Shown piece by piece: positions 8,102-23,922 of a stretch of DNA of 23,922 nt (within the stretch, counting starts at the first letter, position 1; each line of letters starts with the position of its first letter). The notes beneath the pieces were generated by a model, which was given only the letters and a program-made list of their open reading frames with translations, ran no database searches and was not told where the DNA came from. Source of the DNA: Spirogloea muscicola (lineage: Eukaryota; Streptophyta; Zygnematophyceae; Spirogloeales; Spirogloeaceae); contig WELB01000028.1 in the NCBI GenBank assembly GCA_009602725.1, forward strand, positions 127,095-151,016, written 5' to 3'. The position numbers and the translations under genes are program-made.

Positions 8102-11100
8102 TCAGCTTGCAGAAGAAGCTGCACTCTGCTCTTCACTGAGCCGCAGGTTCTCCATCAAAGCTGGCCTAATGTGAGTCTTGCCCCCCCCCTTGGTGGAGCA
8201 CCTCTTGGCAGCCACCATCATCAGCTGCGGTGGTTGACCACGTGACTGGACGTTCTTCACGTTCTCAATGTCACGCTCAGAATCTGTCATATCATTGACT
8301 GCCGCAGCACGGTGCCGTCTCGCATGTTGTATTCTCTGGCCAACTGCAAAGCCCACATCTGAGCTGTCTTCCGGTGCAACTTGATCTTCGCTCGAATCAT
8401 TAACAACAGCCTCAAGCGTACTCTGCGGCTCCAAGTCTCCAGCCAGCGAGAGCTCCTCAACTGCAGAGCCTGTGGAGGATGTCGACAGCCGGGCAAGTGC
8501 TTGGGCTTTGCTCTGCCGGCGAGGCTGTTGCCGCCTCGCCTTTGGCGCCTCGTCGCAACGGGCAGCTCGCGGCCCTGGATAGACTGGCAAATGCAGACAG
8601 TGAGCCTGCGGTCTTGAATGCATACACTGCAACAAACGCAAGTCACAAAAGATAGGAAGAACTAGAGGAGTGGACATAACAGATGTTACCTCTCTGTCAA
8701 GATTGCAGCTTGCTTGCAATGTCTAGAAATTTGCACATGTGAAGTTTACATCTGCAATCAGAGTAACAACAGCTGTCAATCACACCTGAGCGAGACATGC
8801 GGTGCTGCACTTCTGAGGACTGCTGAGGCTGCCTAAACTCCTCCAGAGTGCCACCGTCTTCCACCTCAACACCGTCGCCCTCCCGAGATGATGGAGCCGC
8901 AGCCAGACCTGACAGGAGCAGGATGCTTCCAAATCTTAGTGACCAACAAATGTGGGCCACCGCAGCACGGCGAGCCGGCTGCCAGCGCCGGTATGCGGGG
9001 ATGCAAGGACACAGACCATCCAGCAGAGCTTGGAGGTCATCGTTGGAGATGGGCGCCGCAGGTGCGCCGCTGCTGTCGAGCGACAGCTGCTCCAGCCTGG
9101 CCACCATGTCCTGCAGCTCCATGATCGCGGCACCATCGCCGGCAACCTCCTCTGCCATTCTGTCGCAACCAAGTTTGCAGCTCCATCAAACGACAAAAGT
9201 ATGACTCGATTGTAGTCAGTGGCCTGCAGTCGGGTGCCCGAAAAGCGTCCAGTATTACTGCGCACCTGGGAGCAAGGGCGAGGAGGACAGCTATCGGCTC
9301 CCGCTGCGATGGCCGGAGCGTCAGTGCCGATAAGCACTTCATAAGCAGTGCCGAGAGTGCGCGGCGGTCGGGCCGAGGGCGGCCGCGCACAACTTCTGCC
9401 GCCAGCTGGAGGGCAAGCGCCTCGTGGCCCCTGTCTGTGTCGTCCTCCTCCATGACAGGCGCCGGTGCGGCTGGGAGGCCCCTGTCGCCGGCCACCATCG
9501 GGTCACCTGCACTGTCAACGGCCTGCTGTGCTGCCAGCAGCGGCCGCTGCAGCAGGGCGACCATGAGCCGTGCGAGCTGCGCCGCCTGCCTGCGCACAGC
9601 GAGCAGCCGACGTCGGTGTCAGCTGCTGGCAAGGGCGGCCTTCGTGCCAAATTGGTGTTGCACATGAAGGCATCAATTTCATCACTTGATTGATAGTCAA
9701 GTATTTATGTAAGCATGTAAGACTGGTCTTAGTCATACTTGCAATGGCAGATTCTGGTTCTTAATTGGTGTAGTCACAGCGATACTCACTTGCGCTTGGC
9801 ACTCGCCACACGGGAGCCGTCGGTGAGCTGCGGCCAGCTCCGCAGGACCACCTCGAGGAAGACGGCGGCGATGGCCCCCTGCGCTCACGGCGGCACGCAC
9901 AGCGCCGGATTAGTAGGCCTGCTTTGGCGAAGGGGATTCTTGCTGTCGTCTGCTGGCGTAGATGTCCGAGCTCTGCGATGGAGGAGACGATAAGGGGAAC
10001 GGAAGATGGAGGGTCTGCAGGGCGAGGCGATGTCTTGCCTGGTTTGCAGCGGAGAGGACAGCGTAGTTCTCGAAAAAGATGTAGAGGCACTGCCGCAGCC
10101 GGGGCTTGCGGTCGCCGTCAAGGCCGCTGTACAGCGCCAGGAGCCGAGCCAGCGGCGTCGCCGTCTCGCTCGGCATCGGCGGGGCGTCCGGCGGCGGTCG
10201 GCAGAGCAGGAGCTTCGCCAGGCCCTCGGCAGCGAGGCCGTGGATGCCCTCCACGGCGCCCCCTCCTCTCTCCTCGTCCGGTCCATCGGCCTCCTCCCCT
10301 GCATGCCCTCCCTCCTCACCTCCCTCCTCACGTTCCTGGTCCTCATCTAGGAGAGCCACCAGGAGGGCCGAAAGCCGGAGGCCGGCTGTGCCACCACCGC
10401 CGCCGTCCTTTCCATCGAGGCCATCAGCACCGTGGCACAGCGTCAGGTCCACGAGGGCCTTGACCGCAGTGTGCCTCTCGCATGGTTTGGCGCTTGCGTC
10501 TGCTGCTACTCTCTCCAGCACCGGCAGCGCCAGCTGGGCGGCGCCCGCGTCCATGTGCCCGAGCAGCGCCAAGCAGCGTAGGCCCGCCGTGCGGACGTGG
10601 GCATCGCCGTGACCAGCCTGTGGCAGAAGCACAACAGCGAGCGTCACAACTGCTGGCTTGGCGGGACTCGCCACTCGGCAGACGAGCTGGCGGTGGTGAG
10701 AGGTGGCGGTGACTCTCACCGCCGGCAGGAGCAGGTGGTCGAGCAGGGCGGCGGGGCTGGCGCCGGCGGTCGCTAGCTGGCGCGGCCCGGTGGCGCTGGA
10801 AAGCAGCACCTCGGCAGCACCGAGGGCACGGCACCAGTCCGTGGCTCCCTGGGGAGCATCGGCGCCCGGCGGCAAGCCGCGGAGCTCGCCGAGCGGCGCC
10901 ACGACGGCGGCTGCCCACTCCGTGCCCTCGCCGTGCACGCGGCGCGAGAACCTGTCCACTGCGTCGCGCCACTGCAGGCGAGCGAGGCGACCGCAGCCAC
11001 ACATCATGCGACCGATCAGGCGAAGTCATGCCGGCAGCTCGAAGCGGCAGGGTGCGGCAGTGGACCTGCTTGTCAGCCAAGAGGAAGGGCCGGTCCGGCG

Positions 11101-12565: not shown

Positions 12566-12960
12566 NNNNNNNNNNNNNNNNNNNNNNNNNNNNNNNNNNN
12601 NNNNNNNNNNNNNNNNNNNNNNNNNNNNNNNNNNNNNNNNNNNNNNNNNNNNNNNNNNNNNNNNNNNNNNNNNNNNNNNNNNNNNNNNNNNNNNNNNNNN
12701 NNNNNNNNNNNNNNNNNNNNNNNNNNNNNNNNNNNNNNNNNNNNNNNNNNNNNNNNNNNNNNNNNNNNNNNNNNNNNNNNNNNNNNNNNNNNNNNNNNNN
12801 NNNNNNNNNNNNNNNNNNNNNNNNNNNNNNNNNNNNNNNNNNNNNNNNNNNNNNNNNNNNNNNNNNNNNNNNNNNNNNNNNNNNNNNNNNNNNNNNNNNN
12901 NNNNNNNNNNNNNNNNNNNNNNNNNNNNNNNNNNNNNNNNNNNNNNNNNNNNNNNNNNNN
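12566..12960. other. Assembly gap (395 N)
   Basis: All bases are N. The gap interrupts the CAP-G gene just upstream of the conserved DDVWDD segment. Translations that run through it are meaningless. The true gap length is unknown. Confidence 0.99.
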
Positions 12961-13487: not shown

Positions 13488-16400
13488 ATGGACGACGATG
13501 GCCTGCCCACCAGGACGTCCAGGGAGCAGCGCCGGCTGGAGGCCGTGGTTGGCGAGATCTACGCCGCGCTCGCCGACGAGCCCGGCTACCTCGACCTGTG
13601 AGGCGGCGCCCTTGCCGCTCCTATGGCGGCGCCGCGTCGCCGGTGCTCAGCTGGGAGCGCCAGGCCGTCCAGCGCCGCCGCCGACCCAGCTCGCTGGCCT
13701 CGCCGCGGGCCTCGGCTCGGGCCTCGCCGAGCTGCGCTGCTGGCAGGGCCTGACGCGACGGCGGCGGCGGCGGCGGCGGCGGCAGGATCGAGCTGTGGAG
13801 GGGCCGCCACGTGGCGTTCTGCCTCCAAAGCCTGCAGCGCCTTTCTGGCCTCTACGCCGCGCTGGACGCCAGGTGACACAACGGCGGCGGCGGTGTTGGG
13901 CCCGCTCGCCAGTGCCGCACCGCCCTCGAGCCCGGCGGGGCACTGCCGCTCCTAAGCCACATTAGTCATACCCCTGTAACGCAAAGCCAAACACCCAAAC
14001 CCAGATTCCTAGATCCTCCCTCACGCCGCCTCCTCCGCCGCCCACCATGGCTGCGCCGCTGCCGGTCGTCTGTGCCAGCCGACCATGGGTGTGCTACTGG
14101 ATCCTCCACTCGCTGGCGCTGCTGGGCCACCGGCTGGAGCGCCGCCTCGTGGACAGCTGCGCGGCCTTCCTGGCCCGCTGCCAGGTGCGGCGTCTGCCTC
14201 ACCTCGGTGGCAGCGGCTTATCCAACGTCACACTCGGTGGCAATCACCGGCGCGGCGGATGGGTCTCGGTGCCTCTCCCGACATGCTCCGTCTTTAGGTG
14301 GCAGCGGGCTGTCTCTGATCAGCATGCGCTGCCATTGCTGGGTCCTGCCTGTGTTGCAGCACCCCGAAGGCGGCTTTGGCGGCGGGCCGGGGCAGGTGCG
14401 TGCTGCACCGCTGCCACTTCGCAGTGCTCAGCCACCCATAGCCATCATAGCGCAGTTGCATCTCAAGGCTGCTCCTCATCCTGCCCTCCTGACTGAGACT
14501 GGCAGCCTGACGCTCAAAGCTCCGGCTCTGTGATGCTCGTTACCGAGCATCGGTCTTGCAGATGGCGCATCTGGCGACCACGTACGCAGCCGTGTGCGCG
14601 CTGGTCACCATTGGTGGAGGCGAAGCCCTGGCGGTCATCGACAGGCGCGGTCCCTGCTCGCCCAACCTACTCTTGGGCTTGGCCAGTCGCGCTGCTTCAG
14701 AGACGATCTCCAGCCCAACTCAGCATAATGGCTGTGTTGCTCGGGCTCCACTTAGTGCGACGGTTGTTGCTGCTGATGACCCCTGCGTGTCGTGTGCTCG
14801 CTCCAGGCCCGCAATGGCGGCCTTTCTCGGGAGGATGAAGGCGCCTGGTGGCGGCTTCACGTAAGATTTGCCCTTCTTAAGCCTATCTCCTTGCCGTTTT
14901 TGCACAGATAGCCTTTAGCAGTTTGGCCTTCTTAGCAGCTAAGAGTCTTCAACTGTGTGTATTACAAGCTCAACACTAGCAGGATCCATTCCCTGACAGA
15001 CACACAGTCTATTTTGGCCGAGTTGAGCAGCATGCACGACGATGGGGAAATTGATATTCGTGGTAGCTACACCGCCCTTGCTGTGAGTCGCCCCTTTTGA
15101 CAAGTCTTGCGCAAACCGCCGCTGTCACGCAGACTCGAGCAGCAGCTGCGTGCTGCTGCTTCTTCCTCCAGCTCATAGTGGCCCGATGAAAGCACATGCT
15201 GCTCAGTGTCTGAGCCTCGTGCTTTGGCTTCTGCTTTGCTGTCGAGGGTCCTGCCTTGGACCAGTCCGTGTGTCCTTCTGCTTCGCTGTCGAGGGTCCTG
15301 CCTTGGACCAGTCCATGTGTCTGTCAAAGCAGTGGAATGCAGCGAGTGAGTTGACCTGCTTAGCGTGTTACATTAGGGGAAAAGTCGAGTCTGGGGTGCC
15401 GTTTGAAGCCGTGGTGCTGCTTCTCAAATCAGGTGGCTCACATTCTCAGTATCACAACGCCGGACCTCCTGAGAGGCGTTGGAGATTACCTGGCCAAGTG
15501 AGTCGCAGTCAGACAGTAGTTTCCTGTGATTTTGTGGCTTGGCAAAGCCAGGAAACTTACCTCGCCATCTCACTGGAAACCGTTCCTGAGAGCGATGTGC
15601 TGTAAAACAGTCAGTCAATTTGATGATCACATAGAACCAAGCGCTTCATACTTATCTGTATTCCAGTTTGTGCCAGCTGTCAGACATATGAGGGAGGGAT
15701 GGGGGGCGAGCCTGGCAATGAAGCACACGGCGGGTGAGCAACTGGTGAAGCTTTGAAAATCTGTCAATAACGGAGTCAACTTCACAACTGCGATATGGCC
15801 TGGATTCGGTGAATGGTACCCTTATCAGGTGGAGCTGGTAACGGAAGAAGGCTAGTTGGGCAGTGTCATTTCTGATGCTGCGCCGTTAAGTTGGTCCTCA
15901 AGTCACACTTGAGATATTGGCATTTTGGGCAGTTGCTTACTTGCACAAGAGGACGATTTTATCTAGGTACACATTCTGCGGCCTTGCGGCTGCCATTCTC
16001 GCCGGCGAGGTGGACAAACTCCACTTGACTTCCTTGCTGGTAAATGCAACGGGCGCTGGCTTTGTGCAACTTGCTTGAGATGGCAGACCGCCAACTGCTG
16101 CCTGGTACAATTATCTGAGACGTCAGAGTTGGCCATATATTGTAGAGTTGAGAGATGGAAGTTGAACCTGAAAGTCATTGATGGCCAGTTTCAGAATCAT
16201 CCCTGAGCACTATGATGATTTTTTGCGACTCGAATGTGAAGCATAGTGAGTGCTGAGTATGAGAGCTAGATGCTGAGCTCTCTGAGTTGCCCCAGGCCTT
16301 AACTCCCAATGTGAGTGGCTCGCAGGACTGGGCAGTGTTCCGTCAAGGCCAGGTGGAAGGCGGCTTCCAGGGCCGGACAAACAAGCTCGTGGATGGCTGC

Positions 16401-17899
16401 TACTCATTCTGGCAGGTCGGTCGAGACCAAATTGCTATACACCTTGACAACTGTGACAGAGGTCAGAGATGTAAGTGCAGCATGCATTATCAACATACTT
16501 GACTGTGTCATCTGGGACGCTGGATTGAATGGCAATTTTACGTGCGCGGCCCCCATCACGCTGACCATCTGCTTGCGCAGCCATTGCCAGGGTGGCCTCA
16601 TCCTCCTGCTAAACAGGCTGATGCCGCAACTGACTGACCACTTTGCGGTTCCCCGAAAGGCCATCAGGGCGGGTCTCTGGCAGCCTCAGGAGAGCCGCCC
16701 CTCAGACAGGGAAGTGCAGGATGGCAGTCAGGGCATGGCATCAAGCTGCCAAAACGGCTCTGTTGGCAGTAGGGACGGGGCAGAGGATGATGTTGGCCCA
16801 GATCTATGGCGTGCAAAGGCGGCTGCAGTGAACGAGCCTTCTGTGCGTCCAGCATCACAGACCGCGGCGGCAGAGGCAGGCGAGCAGGACAATAGCAGAG
16901 GAGGGCAAGTGGCAGGCAGTGTGACTGACGGCGCCAACGGGTCAAGCGCGCATCACAATCAGCGAGGGGAGGACACAGCAAGGAGGGCGGAGGTCAGCGG
17001 GCAGGGCGAGGCCACCAACGTGGGCTGCCGGCATGACGAGGAGGCTTCGCTGCCGCGCGCAGCGGCTGGGCTTGCAGGACTCGGCGGCCATCACTGGGGC
17101 ACGGATGGACCAGCTTCGCCGGACCACATGAGTTGTGTGATTGTCAAGGCCGCTGAGCTCTTCCCACATGTTTCAGACCGAGCGCGAGCAGGCCGCCACA
17201 AGGCTGAGATATTGGAAGAGGGCGGCAATGACGAGGTGGGCGCTGCTGAGGGCCAGGACGAGGATGGCGATGTGGACGTTGATGATGGGGAGGATGAAGC
17301 GTGGCCAGGATTCAACTCTCGTGCTCTCCAGGCCTACTTGCTGCTTTGCTCCCAGGTGCTTGCTGGTGTCCTTCAGAAACAGAATGGGCCGTAGGTCATG
17401 TGTCCATCACGTGCCGGCGGCGAGATTGTACCTATCTTCTGGCTGCATCCCTGTTGCGTGATCAGACTGCTATCCTTCTGGCGCACTTGGCAGCCTTCAG
17501 CGTTCCAAGCAGGTCTCTGTCTGGCCGCAGTGCATGTCAGGTAGAGATTAGAATCTGCTTCACTGCTGGAAGGATGGAGCAGGGAGTCACATGCTCGTGT
17601 CTGCATCTGTGGGCCAGGTAATCGACGGAGGCCTGCGGGACAAGCCCGGCAAGGCCCGCGACTATTACCACACTTGCTACTGCCTCAGCGGCCTGTCCGC
17701 TGCGCAGCACGCAGAGAGCATGCCGCACCAGTACAGCTGGGAGCTGGATGCTTTGGGGGTACCATGGCCGCCTCCCCCTCCTTGCGCCGTCCTCGGGCCC
17801 TACTCCAATCTCCTGGAGCCTGCCGAGCCGCTCTGCAATGTGCACATTGTCCGTTACCAAGAGGCTCGTGACTACTTCCTTAGTCTTGGCAGCATGTAA
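13488..17899 (+). CDS. FNTB: Protein farnesyltransferase subunit beta
   Basis: This is the catalytic beta subunit that, with the alpha subunit, transfers farnesyl diphosphate to the cysteine of CaaX proteins. Exons are 13488-13597, 13786-13872, 14079-14184, 14360-14395, 14562-14644, 14807-14860, 15031-15082, 15433-15497, 15677-15733, 15967-16039, 16326-16415, 16591-17355 and 17618-17899 (619 residues, all phases match). The start has a perfect GCCGCCATGG context. Alpha-alpha barrel landmarks are RPWVCYWILHS (67-77), HPEGGFGGGPGQ (exon 4, only 36 bases) and CQTYEGGMGGEPG. The zinc ligands are visible as D264 and C266 in NKLVDGCYSFWQ and H544 in YYHTCYCLSGL. About 225 acidic, low-complexity residues (~290-510) are inserted where plant enzymes carry a shorter acidic insert. 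A strong acceptor at 17175-17176 hints that part of that block may be an intron. The intron at 14645 has a GC donor. Confidence 0.95.
14645..14806 (+). other. Probable GC-AG intron in farnesyltransferase beta
   Basis: The exon ends ATCGACAG and the intron begins GCGCGG, ending CGCTCCAG. Only this donor gives the phase-2 join needed to link AVIDR to the conserved AMAAFLGRMK. The nearby GT at 14651 is in phase 1 and fails. The donor is a weak match to the GC consensus beyond the exon-side AG. Confidence 0.65.
15231..15324 (+). repeat. 47-base tandem duplication inside a farnesyltransferase intron
   Basis: Two nearly identical copies (15231-15277 and 15278-15324) share the core GTCGAGGGTCCTGCCTTGGA and differ at only a few positions. 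They lie within the intron at 15083-15432. The near identity implies a recent duplication. Confidence 0.9.
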
Positions 17900-18520
17900 A
17901 TGCTCAATATTAGCATATCTTGGAGGTCCATGAGCAGAACAGGCAAATGTGGTCTGCTTTTGCAACCTGATTGAAAGTGACTACCAAGCGGTGGCTGTCT
18001 GGTCAAATCGCAGATGGGCAATTTACCACCTTGTCACTCGACTCTCCTTATTAGTGCCCTGATCATACATGAGTTGCCACTGGGATCTGATGTAACTCGC
18101 AAGTCATGCTTATTGACGATAAAGCAAATAAGAGGAGGTTGACTTGCTAGACAGCCTGTACCTGTTGTTCTGCCCTGTGAGCTCATGATATGGCACAAAA
18201 CAATGACCTTTGAGCTGCTTTACCAGAGTTGACCTACAGCTAAGCAGGTCACAGCAATGTGCGCACATCAACGCACTGTTGAGCCCAATGAAAGGCATCC
18301 GCAGAGCAGAGCACTACTTGATAGCTGCAACTCCTACACGCCACGGGAGAGTGTGTGGAGGTTGAGAAAAGAGGATGTCATTGACCAAGTCACGGTTCTG
18401 ATCGCAATGAAACTCTGTCACAGGTGACTGCAAGGCCTAGTCTGCCAAGGTCAGCAAAAGCACCAGTGTGAGTTTTGTATGATCAGGCCTGCACATTCCA
18501 GGGGCTAAGCATTCATCGTG
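17900..18520. other. Spacer between convergent farnesyltransferase and SYCP2-like genes
   Basis: No coding exon is recognised in these 621 bases. A TGTAA at 18091-18095, 192 bases after the farnesyltransferase stop, is a candidate green-algal polyadenylation signal for that gene. No matching TTACA for the minus-strand gene was noticed. Confidence 0.5.
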
Positions 18521-21435
18521 TCAGTGTGTTGCATGAGATGGTGATGACATGACAGTATTGAATAGATCAAGATGACAAATGTGGCACCGGGCCTTGATCA
18601 CCTCATGTCGCAATTTCTTCAAGTGCAGGTGCAGCTCCTTCTTGGAACCCAGGATCTCTAGGTGAACTACACCTGACTGAGTCCTTGCATAGCCACGCAG
18701 CAGCAGCTGTAAAGTGCCTCGGCTCTTCTTGACGAGCTGCTTACGGTATGTATGACGTCTCGACGACAGTCCTCCTACAGCTTCTGTATGGCTTCTCATG
18801 TCCTTTTTGAAAGGGGAAACATGACTTGACAGTCCTGCTGCTGAGCCTCGTCTTGGTTGCCTTCGATGGACTGGTTCCTCTGATGAATATTGTAGCTCTT
18901 TGGGCGAGTGACAACAAAGCTGAGGACTAGTTGGTGAATGCGGCGTCCTAGGAAAGGCTCGACTTTCTGGTGTATTTACACACTTGGGCTGCTCATGAGA
19001 CTGTGAGGGGTGTTGCTTCAAGGGTTGCAATCTATCCGCAGCAACAGCTCCCGTAGTGGCGCCACTCCTTTCTGGGCCTTGTTGTCGTATAAGCTTGGGC
19101 AGTGCCGTGGGCTTCTTTTGCTTCAGTGTCAAGTCGCCTGAGGTTGTTATGCCAATGGAGGCCTTCTCCTTACACCACACTTTCACCTTCGGAAGAGTGC
19201 AAGCCTCAAAAAAATCTAGGTCTGGAGAAGGCAGCAGCAATATTGTGTGAGAGAGCACAATGAAATCTCCAACACTGCGCACTGATGTTACATGAAGGTT
19301 TTCAAGGTTGCAGTACTCTGGAAGCATAGGCCGATTACCTGAACACTTTAAGTGTACTGCCAGCGTCCATTGTCCTTGATGTTCCATTTGCAGCTGTTTG
19401 CAAGGCAGGAGGAGGGTGGAGTGAGGATGGAGATTGATCAGGTCCGCACTTGAAGAGTTTTAGACTCTCCTTGCGTATACTGCAGTCGTGGCACGGTCAG
19501 AGCTGGGACGCATAGGTCGCACGAGGTTTGACGAATGTACCTCCTGTGCAATACGATTTACAACATATTCTGTCGGCTGGATTGCAAGGATTTCATCTGA
19601 AAGCCCTGGTCAGGTAGACAATATCAATTTGAACATGTCAATTTCAAAGGTCCAAATTAGTCGTCAATAGTGTCAGGCATATGAATCTCATACACATGCA
19701 TGCAATGATTTTTCAAGGATACTGACATACTTTTGACAGACTGAAGATCTCGGTATTGTATGTCGAGCAGACGGGCTTCAGTTGTGTTGCTGGACACATA
19801 ACAACTCAACCCGCCATATCCAAAGTCAATCCACCTCTCGTCTCGAGAGGTGACATCCGCGCCACCAATCCTCAAACTCTTCAACACGAAGGAGTGCACA
19901 CTGCCACCACAGACGAAGAGCAGAACACCAATCACTGTCATTAGTGGTTGATGGTTTGACATGTAGGTCCATGTCTTGGAAAAAGTCAAGCTCCTTGATG
20001 ACATACCTCCTGTATGGAGCGTTTGCCTTGTTGACGATATTGACAAGTTGCCGGATCTCGGCAACAAGGTCATGCTGTTTCTTGCCGTGGACACTTTTCA
20101 GAAACTTGACAACTTGGGAGTTACTGAGTTGAGCAGTCAATTGGGGCGCCCTCCGGCTTAGCCTGAAGAGCATTTCTGCAACCAAACTCATACGTGCAGA
20201 AAAGTGACTGTTGTGCCTTGTCAAGAGCATGCTGCAGAAGGCAAGAGATGATGGGAGTGTTCAATGGCTCAACAATGTCATGGATACTCTTGCAAACTTC
20301 GAACCTGCAAGGGTTCCTTGCATGGTGAAGTCCCCACATTCAGCTAGTTGTCTGTTAAAGAGGTCGAGGCTGCACAGAGTAATGGTATTATGTGTACAGC
20401 TCGAGATGGATTTCATGTATTGCAAAGTGTGGCTACAAATGGTAGTAAAATGTTGCTGTGCTTGTTCCAAGGACTTAAATGATGTCGACTGCATTCACAA
20501 GGCAAGTGGGAGTGCCAGCACAGGAAGCAGATTATTGAGAAGCCAATACTTGGCACCGCTATTGTGTCACTTACCACCCTGGTTCCTGGAGCAACAAGCT
20601 CTGGTTGTAGGGTGAAAGGCTGATCAATGCGCACAGACAGTCAAGAAGTGCTCGGCGGACCTTCATGCTCAGGTGAGCATCATCTCCACCCATCGCAAGT
20701 CTTGACAACCTGCTCACGAAGACTTTGCCACACGCAGCTTTGCCTGCGCAGGAACAGCTCCACATGCAAATCAACACCTGCCTTTATCACAGCCTGCCAC
20801 AATCACAGCTGCATCAAGGGAATGCTGTGCTTCTCGGTTATGATTTAGCCATAGACCTTCCCAGCAGTTCCTGCGGGGAAGTGAGCGTGGTAAGGGCCGC
20901 AAGCTCACCTGATGCGGTTTCAGAAAGATCTTCAACGATGTAGTACACCTCTCCCAAGCAGTCCATGGTAGAGTTCACATCCATTGGTGATGCTACCTTG
21001 CGAGCCGGTACCAGATGATCGTGCATGGCACTAAGACAATTCACTAGCTGCGTTTGCAGAGTAAAATTTATTAAAGCTTCCATTGACGGCGGGTTGGCCG
21101 AGAGTAGACCACGGATGTTGCGAATGAGTCTTGCCGCTGCAGTCCGTGCTGTAGACATATTGGCCTCTGCAAGGCTGCTCATCTGGACCTGCAGCAGATC
21201 GCGCTCATGTGTATACGTCAGGACTACACACCTTCATATATAGCTCAGGATGTGCTGGACATCTTTGAGGCCGTGCAAGATTCTGGAAGATGTGCTGGTG
21301 GCCTGCCTTCTGCAGCAGACCGCACAGTGTCCTGATTCGGTCCTGGTTTGCCGCCAGCGGCATAGCGTGTCCAGCGGCCGCCGCCTGCACCTCCGCCTCC
21401 GCCTGGTCGAGCAGCTCATTGACATTGCCGTCCAT
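18521..21435 (-). CDS. SYCP2-like meiotic chromosome-axis protein (armadillo-like plus Spt16M/PH-like domains)
   Basis: Exons in transcript order are 21435-21232, 21188-20909, 20743-20575, 20304-20194, 20123-20007, 19900-19731, 19605-19541 and 19393-18521, encoding 662 residues with every phase consistent. The ATG at 21435 sits in ACCATGG. Residues ~1-290 read as paired helices like an armadillo repeat domain. Landmarks are NELLDQAEAEVQ, INFTLQTQLVNCLSAMHDHL, KVRRALLDCLCALISLSPYN and EIRQLVNIVNKANAPYR. SVHSFVLKSLRIGG followed by RWIDFGYGGLSCYV (W317) then matches, in order and spacing, what I recall of the start of the Spt16M-like domain in vertebrate SYCP2. Residues ~372-420 look like further beta strands. 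The rest is Ser/Pro/basic and probably disordered, ending in a short helical segment (KELHLHLKKLRHEVIKA). SYCP2 is a lateral-element protein of the meiotic axis that binds HORMA-domain proteins and SYCP3. The assignment is from memory of the family; no search was run. The intron at 20305-20574 may hide one more exon. Confidence 0.6.
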
Positions 21436-22361: not shown

Positions 22362-23922
22362 TTATGGTAGCAAGGGTGCAAGTGACGTGGACACATTTAG
22401 CACCCCACACTTGGATATTACAACTGATTTCAATGGTCTATTCCAAGAACTGCGAGCTGAAGTGGCCCTCTCATCCCCCAAGAAAGAAGCGAAACTATTG
22501 AATTGCTGTATTCTCTCATTTGGCTTGTATGTCGGCACAGCTGCAATCCTCGATATGACGTCCATGCCTGCATTGTCACAAGGCAAGCTCAGTGAGTGGT
22601 ACCAACGAAGGTTGCAGGCTTCATTCTGGCAAGCCATGTCAATACTTGCCCACTGACTGATCATGTTGGATAGATCATAGTAAAGTGAAGCATATCACTA
22701 ACGCATTTGGCAGATGACTCGACAATCGCCCTTTCTGACATTTTCCACAACCAAGTGCAGAAGTGCACCTTCTAAGACCGTGCCGATGACAATGTTACCA
22801 TTGTCAAGCTGCGGCGCTGGCCCAGGACCTGCAGGTATTGCATGCAAACATGTCAAGGTGTTGCAGCACTGCCTGCTTCAAGTAACAAGGGTCCAGAATC
22901 AGAGTCGCAAGTGGTAGCGACTTGTAGAGAAAGTAGTCACAATGCCAGTAGCAAAAGCTACCGCGGATAGAAAACCTGAGAGGACGCAATGCCAATCATT
23001 GAAAGCCATGCTGACCTGTGGTTATGAGGAATTCCACGTTGCGGTAGTTGGGGCTAAGCTTACGGTCCTCCTCGTCGTCATTCGTGCTAAGAGCAAGCGA
23101 CACCGTACCAGGGCGCGTGTGTGTCAGCTTGAAAGACTTGCTATCAATGGTCTCTAGGTTAGGTTCAAACTTAAGGTCGCCGTCCACCTCCCCCCTCTCC
23201 TTGGACCCCTGCCTCCCGCCCTGCAAGCACGTCATGCCAAGCTATGGTTAGCCTCTATCGTCACTTTCGCAACAAGCGCCAACGCATTTCAATCAATGGA
23301 CATTTTGCAATTGGCAAGCCCTGAGGGTGTACGATGCAGTGACCACTGTGCTGAATTTCGAGCATAGACTGCAAGGCTCCGGCCTTTGCCAAGCTGCAGC
23401 AGGTGACTTGGTGAATGGAGGCACCAGTCGAAGGCGTTGGCACCTGGAGGTACTGGCCCGCGAGGATGCGGTGAATGATGGTGCCCTCGTAGGACGCGCC
23501 GGCTGCTCCGGAGCACATGGCCACGAAGTTGCTGACAGTCTTGGGCACCTGCTTGCCAAAGAGGCCGATGACAACGCGGCCCAGCGGCTCGCCGTCGCTG
23601 CAGATGAGGGAGCTGTCCCCGAGCGTGCGGTCCACCCGCGCGGCCGATGGACACAGCTTGAAGTCCATGAACACTCGCGCCGTCACCGTGCGCGGCGGCA
23701 GGTCCGCTACCGCCGCCGCCTCCGCCGCAGGTATCCGTGGCAAATCCTGGACTCCAGCCGCTGAAGCCGCGGGATCCAAGCCTCCTGCGATGGCCGCCTC
23801 CACGGCAGTGACACCGCTCGCGGGGCCGGCCGTCGCTAACCCCGTTCCAGCGAGCGCGGCCAGGGCCAGGAGCTCTCGCCGCCCGGCGCTCGCGGCGCGC
23901 GGGTGGGCGTCCGCCGGCCCCG
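22362..23922 (-). CDS. CYP28: CYP28-type thylakoid-lumen cyclophilin (peptidyl-prolyl isomerase), N-terminus beyond the window
   Basis: This is a cyclophilin-family cis-trans prolyl isomerase predicted for the thylakoid lumen. Exons in transcript order are 23922-23444 (partial), 23220-23016, 22828-22769 and 22567-22362, all in phase. The open frame runs to the window edge with no ATG, so the chloroplast transit peptide starts outside. It shows GRRELLALAALAGTGLATA, a twin-Arg plus hydrophobic lumen signal. The block RVFMDFKLCPSAARVDRTLG before EPLGRVVIGLFGKQVPKTV is characteristic of the plant CYP28 subgroup as I recall it. The cyclophilin fold continues with IHRILAGQYLQGGRQG, VEFLITTGPGPAPQLDNGNI and GTVLEGMDVISRI, and the CYP28-like tail PTYKPNERIQQFN. 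The catalytic-site Arg (HRI) and the QGG motif are retained, but the Phe expected after the Arg is replaced. Confidence 0.88.

Follow-up and report, generated by a model that had tools for sequence, protein, structure and literature searches.

Does a green alga encode a meiotic chromosome-axis core protein built like vertebrate SYCP2? The question is raised by an interval (18521-21435) of a 23,922-nucleotide window of Spirogloea muscicola contig WELB01000028.1 (assembly of 153 Mb, 471 contigs; all coordinates are positions in this window), in which an original prediction, made from the letters alone, had seen an armadillo-like (ARM) domain followed by the start of an Spt16M-like domain. The interval holds a minus-strand spliced gene, for which both the ATG at 21435 and the TGA ending at 18521 exist. 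Sequence comparison revealed a resemblance to SYCP2 far above chance, covering the ARM-like repeats and reaching into the PH-like domain, and we consider it highly probable that this is a nuclear green-alga gene for a SYCP2/ASY3/Red1-type meiotic chromosome-axis core protein.

Alignment to SYCP2 by hhalign gave 22% identity over 178 columns. As in mouse SYCP2 (5iwz, ARM-PH), an ARM-like domain is followed by a PH-like (Spt16M-like) domain in collinear alignment, and the two proteins share GD[YF]..Q....E.L.R and WIDF....(x)LS.Y[IV]; SYCP2, and not SYCP2L, served for the vertebrate comparisons. The signature first noticed at this locus, SVHSF, exactly 18 residues, then WIDFGYGGLSCYV, was recovered on joining exons 20175-20007 and 19900-19731, at window positions 20008-19888 and 19833-19795. 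Across the sequence comparisons, the protein proved SYCP2-like in the ARM region and at the start of the PH-like domain, and unlike beta-catenin or a condensin-like open reading frame, in agreement with what had been proposed.

The exon chain was obtained by dynamic programming from conserved GT/AG sites, frames open in all three copies of the gene found in the assembly, and the way in which silent and replacement changes are distributed. No SYCP2 sequence entered the splice search; the better SYCP2 fit of the 20304-20176 junction had been noticed by eye beforehand. The resulting features, all on the minus strand, are as follows.

21261..21435, minus: probable first coding exon (ATG, about 58 residues); ATG present and frame open in each of the three copies.
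20909..21188, minus: exon 2, start of the ARM-like domain.
20575..20743, minus: exon 3, ARM-like (KVFVSRLSRLA...LLLQEPG).
20305..20369, minus: exon 4, ARM-like (CLDLFNRQLAECGDFTMQGTLA); from the three-copy conservation chain; aligns to SYCP2 ...LDVGDYELQVGIVEAL.
20007..20175, minus: exon 5, last ARM-like helices.
19731..19900, minus: exon 6, SVHSF...WIDFGYGGLSCYV, start of the PH-like (Spt16M-like) domain.
19541..19605, minus: exon 7, PH-like domain continued.
19339..19393, minus: exon 8, PH-like domain continued (WTLAVHLKCS); conserved GTAATC/GTAATT donor.
18602..19221, minus: exon 9, end of the PH-like domain, fast-evolving linker and conserved C-terminal segment; open in three copies.
19136..19171, minus: candidate HORMA-binding closure motif KEKASIGITTSG, directly after the PH-like domain; invariant in three copies.
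18614..18724, minus: conserved C-terminal segment SRGTLQLLLRGYARTQSGVVHLEILGSKKELHLHLKK, possible coiled-coil start; few replacements among copies.

Six of these exons (20743-20575, 20369-20305, 20175-20007, 19900-19731, 19605-19541 and 19393-19339) were placed by the search, and two of its choices were overruled by hand. Coding sequence 19221-18602, which the search split once (19221-18980 and 18877-18602), was kept as a single exon: each of the three copies reads through the split in an open frame, with no frame-breaking indel. Exon 2, which began at 21136, at 21203 or with an ATG at 21158 in the three search chains shown, was set at 21188-20909, where both the CTGCAG acceptor (at 21189) and the codons behind it are conserved. 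One of the exon 4 alignments took in the C180 copy and human SYCP2 only. The supported core thus defined comprises eight exons and 531 residues, with no stop or shift. In the three-copy alignment, no convincing phase-compatible conserved donor was found to join exon 1 (21435 to about 21261) to exon 2 as placed. Past 18602, coding conservation is absent: the copies carry frame-breaking 5- and 2-nucleotide indels, and each of them has GT at the junction, so that the gene probably ends elsewhere than at the 18521 stop. Reading all frames downstream of 18602 gave no recognizable coiled-coil exon, and three downstream exons offered by the script (18441-18422, 18217-18144 and 18058-18051) were short, weakly supported and not accepted.

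The 662-residue, hand-spliced product of the original prediction was not reproduced; the gene is there, the ATG and TGA exist, and the supported core has 531 residues. Our first model, of seven exons and 705 residues with a one-base shift in exon 20304-20007, was likewise ruled out by the three-copy alignment. It had misread introns 20304-20176, 19540-19481 and 19338-19222 as exon and missed exon 20369-20305; the apparent frameshift was an artefact of reading intron 20304-20176 as coding. A pseudogene was rejected for the core, in which 0 of 3 copies carry stops or shifts.

Several results weigh against a SYCP2-type assignment. The hhalign probability for the SYCP2 match was 45%, the aligned PH-like part consisted mainly of its first ~45 residues, and exon 3 alone gave no significant match to SYCP2. 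Neither Pfam PF18581 (SYCP2_ARLD, curated cut-off 27.8 bits) nor PF18584 (SYCP2_SLD, 26.5 bits) matched the spliced protein at E values up to 10, and an exon-by-exon search of the genome with both models found no match, the controls being silent too. Default phmmer against PDB returned no SYCP2 match, and blastp of the three copies against two SYCP2s returned nothing. A C-terminal coiled coil, which belongs to the description of the family, is not established in the algal protein. Since both cut-offs were missed, the protein is not filed under either Pfam family; mouse SYCP2, the positive control, lies well above them, with 231 (SYCP2_ARLD) and 155 bits (SYCP2_SLD). The phmmer miss proved to be a filter effect: for all three copies, both SYCP2s get past the MSV filter but are lost at the Viterbi filter.

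The silence of Pfam and the result for exon 3 alone would also be expected of an ARM/HEAT-repeat protein of another family whose likeness to SYCP2 arises only through generic helical repeats, and ARM searches are described as drifting to Vac8 and APC (Tromer et al. 2021, PMC8131943). We regard this explanation as very improbable. A beta-catenin-type ARM identity was rejected, sequence similarity to the beta-catenin ARM array not being found; likeness to the condensin-like open reading frame was not found either, and the SYCP2 likeness holds. A search for relatives among genome contigs gave 130 pattern matches, of which 0 were confirmed. Tromer et al. recognized SYCP2-type proteins by similarity over the last ARM and the PH domain, together with a coiled coil (PMC8131943); the algal protein shows the similarity over the last ARM and the first part of the PH domain.

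We then considered the C-terminal piece for which a coiled coil might be expected. The conserved segment at 18614..18724 comprises 37 residues, none of them proline, and in C180 one extra codon is inserted in frame. When the last 70 residues were put through a crude heptad test, the peak fell in a different segment, and 20 of 500 shuffles scored as high. Comparison with coiled-coil pieces gave no clear match to either ASY3 (80 of 2000 shuffles as good) or SYCP2 (499 of 2000).

We investigated conservation of the gene within the genome. A DNA search of the assembly with the full interval located it, over its whole length, in at least three places: the window (C28) and two others, on C27 (89% identity) and C180 (87%). 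The 4.4 kb next to it likewise occurs at least three times on the same contigs, with the other two copies at 85%. The ratio of replacement to silent substitution rates (dN/dS) between copies was 0.159, 0.217 and 0.223 for exons 2-8 (973 nucleotides), 0.617, 0.560 and 0.731 for the last exon, and 0.824, 0.215 and 0.441 for exon 1. Exons 2-8 are under purifying selection, and the core reading frame is intact in three homeologous copies. Within the last exon, pairwise codon comparisons (at columns without a gap in the window copy) revealed 0/60 replacements in the first 20 codons, 19/60 and 20/60 in the two least conserved 20-codon bins of the linker, and 8/120 in the conserved block at codons 161-200. 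By these counts, a loose linker joins the conserved head of the protein to a conserved tail piece, the layout expected of the SYCP2-type family.

These data bear on two further explanations. A SYCP2-type gene that is decaying, or no longer serves meiosis, in an alga that is polyploid and vegetative would fit the three diverged copies, which suggest an allopolyploid whose meiosis may be impaired, as well as the fast last exon (dN/dS 0.56-0.73) and a 3' end that varies among copies; it is unlikely, however, given a core free of stops and frameshifts in every copy, dN/dS of 0.16-0.22 over exons 2-8 (most of this constraint may predate polyploidy), and the presence of ASY1 and a DMC1-like gene likewise on three contigs each. 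A paralogue with a task away from the axis, as KKT17/18 have at kinetochores and SYCP2L at centromeres, is suggested by the recurrent duplications in the family, its two Chlamydomonas copies and its kinetochore role in kinetoplastids (PMC8131943). DNA similarity points instead to one gene in three homeologous copies, in a search that divergent paralogues would escape, and we hold this explanation to be rather improbable. A main axis core protein remains the reading we prefer.

Such a protein would be expected to act as its relatives do. Axis core proteins carry a closure motif with which they bind HORMADs; it lies directly behind the ordered head in SYCP2 (residues 395-414) and within residues 2-50 in Arabidopsis ASY3. 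The proteins polymerize by means of a coiled coil at the C-terminus (West et al. 2019, PMC6349405). By analogy with the family, the algal ARM-PH head would attach the protein to chromatin or cohesin, and a closure motif just behind it would capture the alga's ASY1/HOP1 by its HORMA domain.

At the end of the conserved head stands KEKASIGITTSG (19171-19136), and the sequence beyond it is less conserved. When the Arabidopsis ASY3 motif was scored over all 12-mers of the 531-residue core, the best place was KEKASIGITTSG; counting against it, this score was equalled by 265 of 3000 shuffled proteins, so the match is not significant by itself. The alga's HOP1 motif ranked the same place second, at background (its top score was reached by 1885 of 3000 shuffles), the Arabidopsis ASY1 motif placed it outside its best four, and the sum of the ASY3, HOP1 and ASY1 scores placed it fourth, with the HOP1 query one residue out of register. 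In the alignment, algal KEKASIGI stands against SRKISIGV of ASY3; the candidate algal region lies around KEKASIGITTSGDLTLKQKKP, and Arabidopsis ASY3 carries SRKISIGVMADS in its binding region (PMC9957857). The C-terminus of the alga's HOP1 reads RTRKASI and then, by our reading across an intron that all three copies conserve, TVDAINQAMKRFKSEP; this C-terminus is conserved in three copies (L024, L025 and L026) and is much like RKTSMVREPILQYSKRQKSQAN of Arabidopsis ASY1 (PMC9957857). The KASI common to HOP1 and the axis protein is an unproven lead. A core shared by the two partners has a precedent in brown algae, where HOP1 and RED1 have C(S/G)LA in common (PMC12678776).

Whether the genome is that of a green alga with meiotic genes was examined through its other contents. 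RbcS (RuBisCO small subunit) exons were found on four contigs, split in two on each (eight matches in all, with frames read on two of the contigs), a pattern in keeping with a nuclear RbcS and hence with the green lineage. Together with a HORMA protein like land-plant ASY1, this agrees with the proposed green-lineage origin. HORMA exons gave ten matches on three contigs; Arabidopsis ASY1 matched 8 of the 8 HORMA loci given (overlapping pieces on three contigs, 38-82% per piece), and human MAD2 matched none of the eight. The probable partner ASY1/HOP1 is thus found in the same genome as the axis gene.

A RecA-family gene on C13, C87 and C65 scored 88.7 bits for DMC1 and 85.2 for RAD51 (one exon, C13 only), and a gene on C62 is clearly RAD51 (114.7 versus 77.5 bits for DMC1). 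None of the 28 exon matches to the DMC1 model TIGR02238 exceeded its whole-protein cut-off, and the model also matched in 12 of the 14 prokaryotes used as controls, as RecA relatives would be expected to do. HOP2 gave two matches on two contigs, MND1 three on three, and the Spo11/Top6A domain was found on three contigs and weakly on a fourth, with assignment at the level of the domain shared by SPO11 and TOP6A. The Cor1/SYCP3 family had no match in the genome; its control was silent everywhere, and this is hence not evidence of absence. The meiotic gene set (HORMA/ASY1, DMC1-like, HOP2, MND1) renders the sexual reproduction originally read from this locus plausible, though not demonstrated; meiosis in S. 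muscicola is likely on this genomic evidence, and the gene set makes a sexual cycle in the alga testable.

ASY1/HOP1, the DMC1-like gene and the Spo11/Top6A domain each occur on three contigs, like the axis-gene region (window 14000-21435), and the genome is triploid-like and perhaps hybrid. Among the matches listed, the RAD51-like gene occurs on C62 only, versus three contigs for the DMC1-like gene, possibly through real copy loss or incomplete assembly.

Elsewhere in the window, a condensin-like subunit exon lies on the minus strand at 9913-11025 (PF12719 Cnd3, E 1e-21), presumably of CAP-G; two chromosome-structure genes, condensin-like and axis, are thereby placed within ~8 kb. An assembly gap of 395 N (12566-12960) lies near the condensin-like gene. 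On the plus strand are two exons of a PF25463 DUF7899 protein at 1580-2649 (E 1.2e-69 and 5.1e-34) and, convergent with the axis gene, the probable last exon of a prenyltransferase subunit at 17552-17896 (PF00432, E 1.3e-10). A peptidyl-prolyl isomerase of cyclophilin type, with a long extension at its N-terminus, occupies 23264-23920 on the minus strand (PF00160, E 1e-8), and positions 1-122 are a run of 122 T.

We finally compared the gene with known systems. SYCP2-type genes have been reported in all supergroups (Tromer et al. 2021), with two Chlamydomonas paralogues of "the SYCP2-type gene ASY3" and Marchantia named in the search path (PMC8131943). A 2023 survey detected ASY3 in chlorophytes (PMC9957857), and the relevant listing of an older survey gives no SYCP2 match for Chlorophyta (PMC4132317). 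An algal SYCP2-type gene, which had been put forward as unexpected, was hence already on record for Chlamydomonas (PMC8131943) and in chlorophyte ASY3 (PMC9957857), and proteins of this type had been described from early-diverging land plants as well. The Spirogloea gene is a divergent SYCP2-type axis gene, genuine and selected, which adds an example to a known family and is no surprise. It offers a well-supported, selected instance of an ancestral ARM-PH axis protein in a green alga on which Pfam and default HMMER are silent, and its remaining interest lies in a possible continuity of the closure motif with seed-plant ASY3 and in the triplicated genome.

Mouse SYCP2 has 1500 residues, compared with 531 and unsettled ends in the alga. 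The ASY3 genes of Chlamydomonas and Marchantia, compared by their description (PMC8131943), share the green lineage and the SYCP2-type naming given by those authors; a coiled coil and a full PH domain are not confirmed in the Spirogloea gene. ecRED1 of the brown alga Ectocarpus likewise has ARM and PH domains and then a closure motif sharing its core with its own HOP1, whereas that core is C(S/G)LA, unlike algal KASI, and a coiled coil is modelled at 1075-1291 (PMC12678776). Seed-plant ASY3 resembles the algal protein in the candidate closure motif, and its expected partner ASY1 is present in the alga. In contrast, ASY3 of seed plants has lost the ARM and PH domains (PMC8131943) and carries the motif near its N-terminus (residues 2-50), while the algal candidate follows the PH-like domain, as does SYCP2 395-414 (West et al. 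2019, PMC6349405). Tentatively, the algal protein may keep the ancestral state, an ARM-PH head with an ASY3-type closure motif behind it; the motif of ASY3 would then be N-terminal because seed plants later deleted the head, and the KASI core of HOP1 and the axis protein could serve as a single binding code, used both in self-closure and in recruitment to the axis. Should the closure motif be confirmed, the gene would show how seed-plant ASY3 was truncated yet kept its HORMA-binding site.
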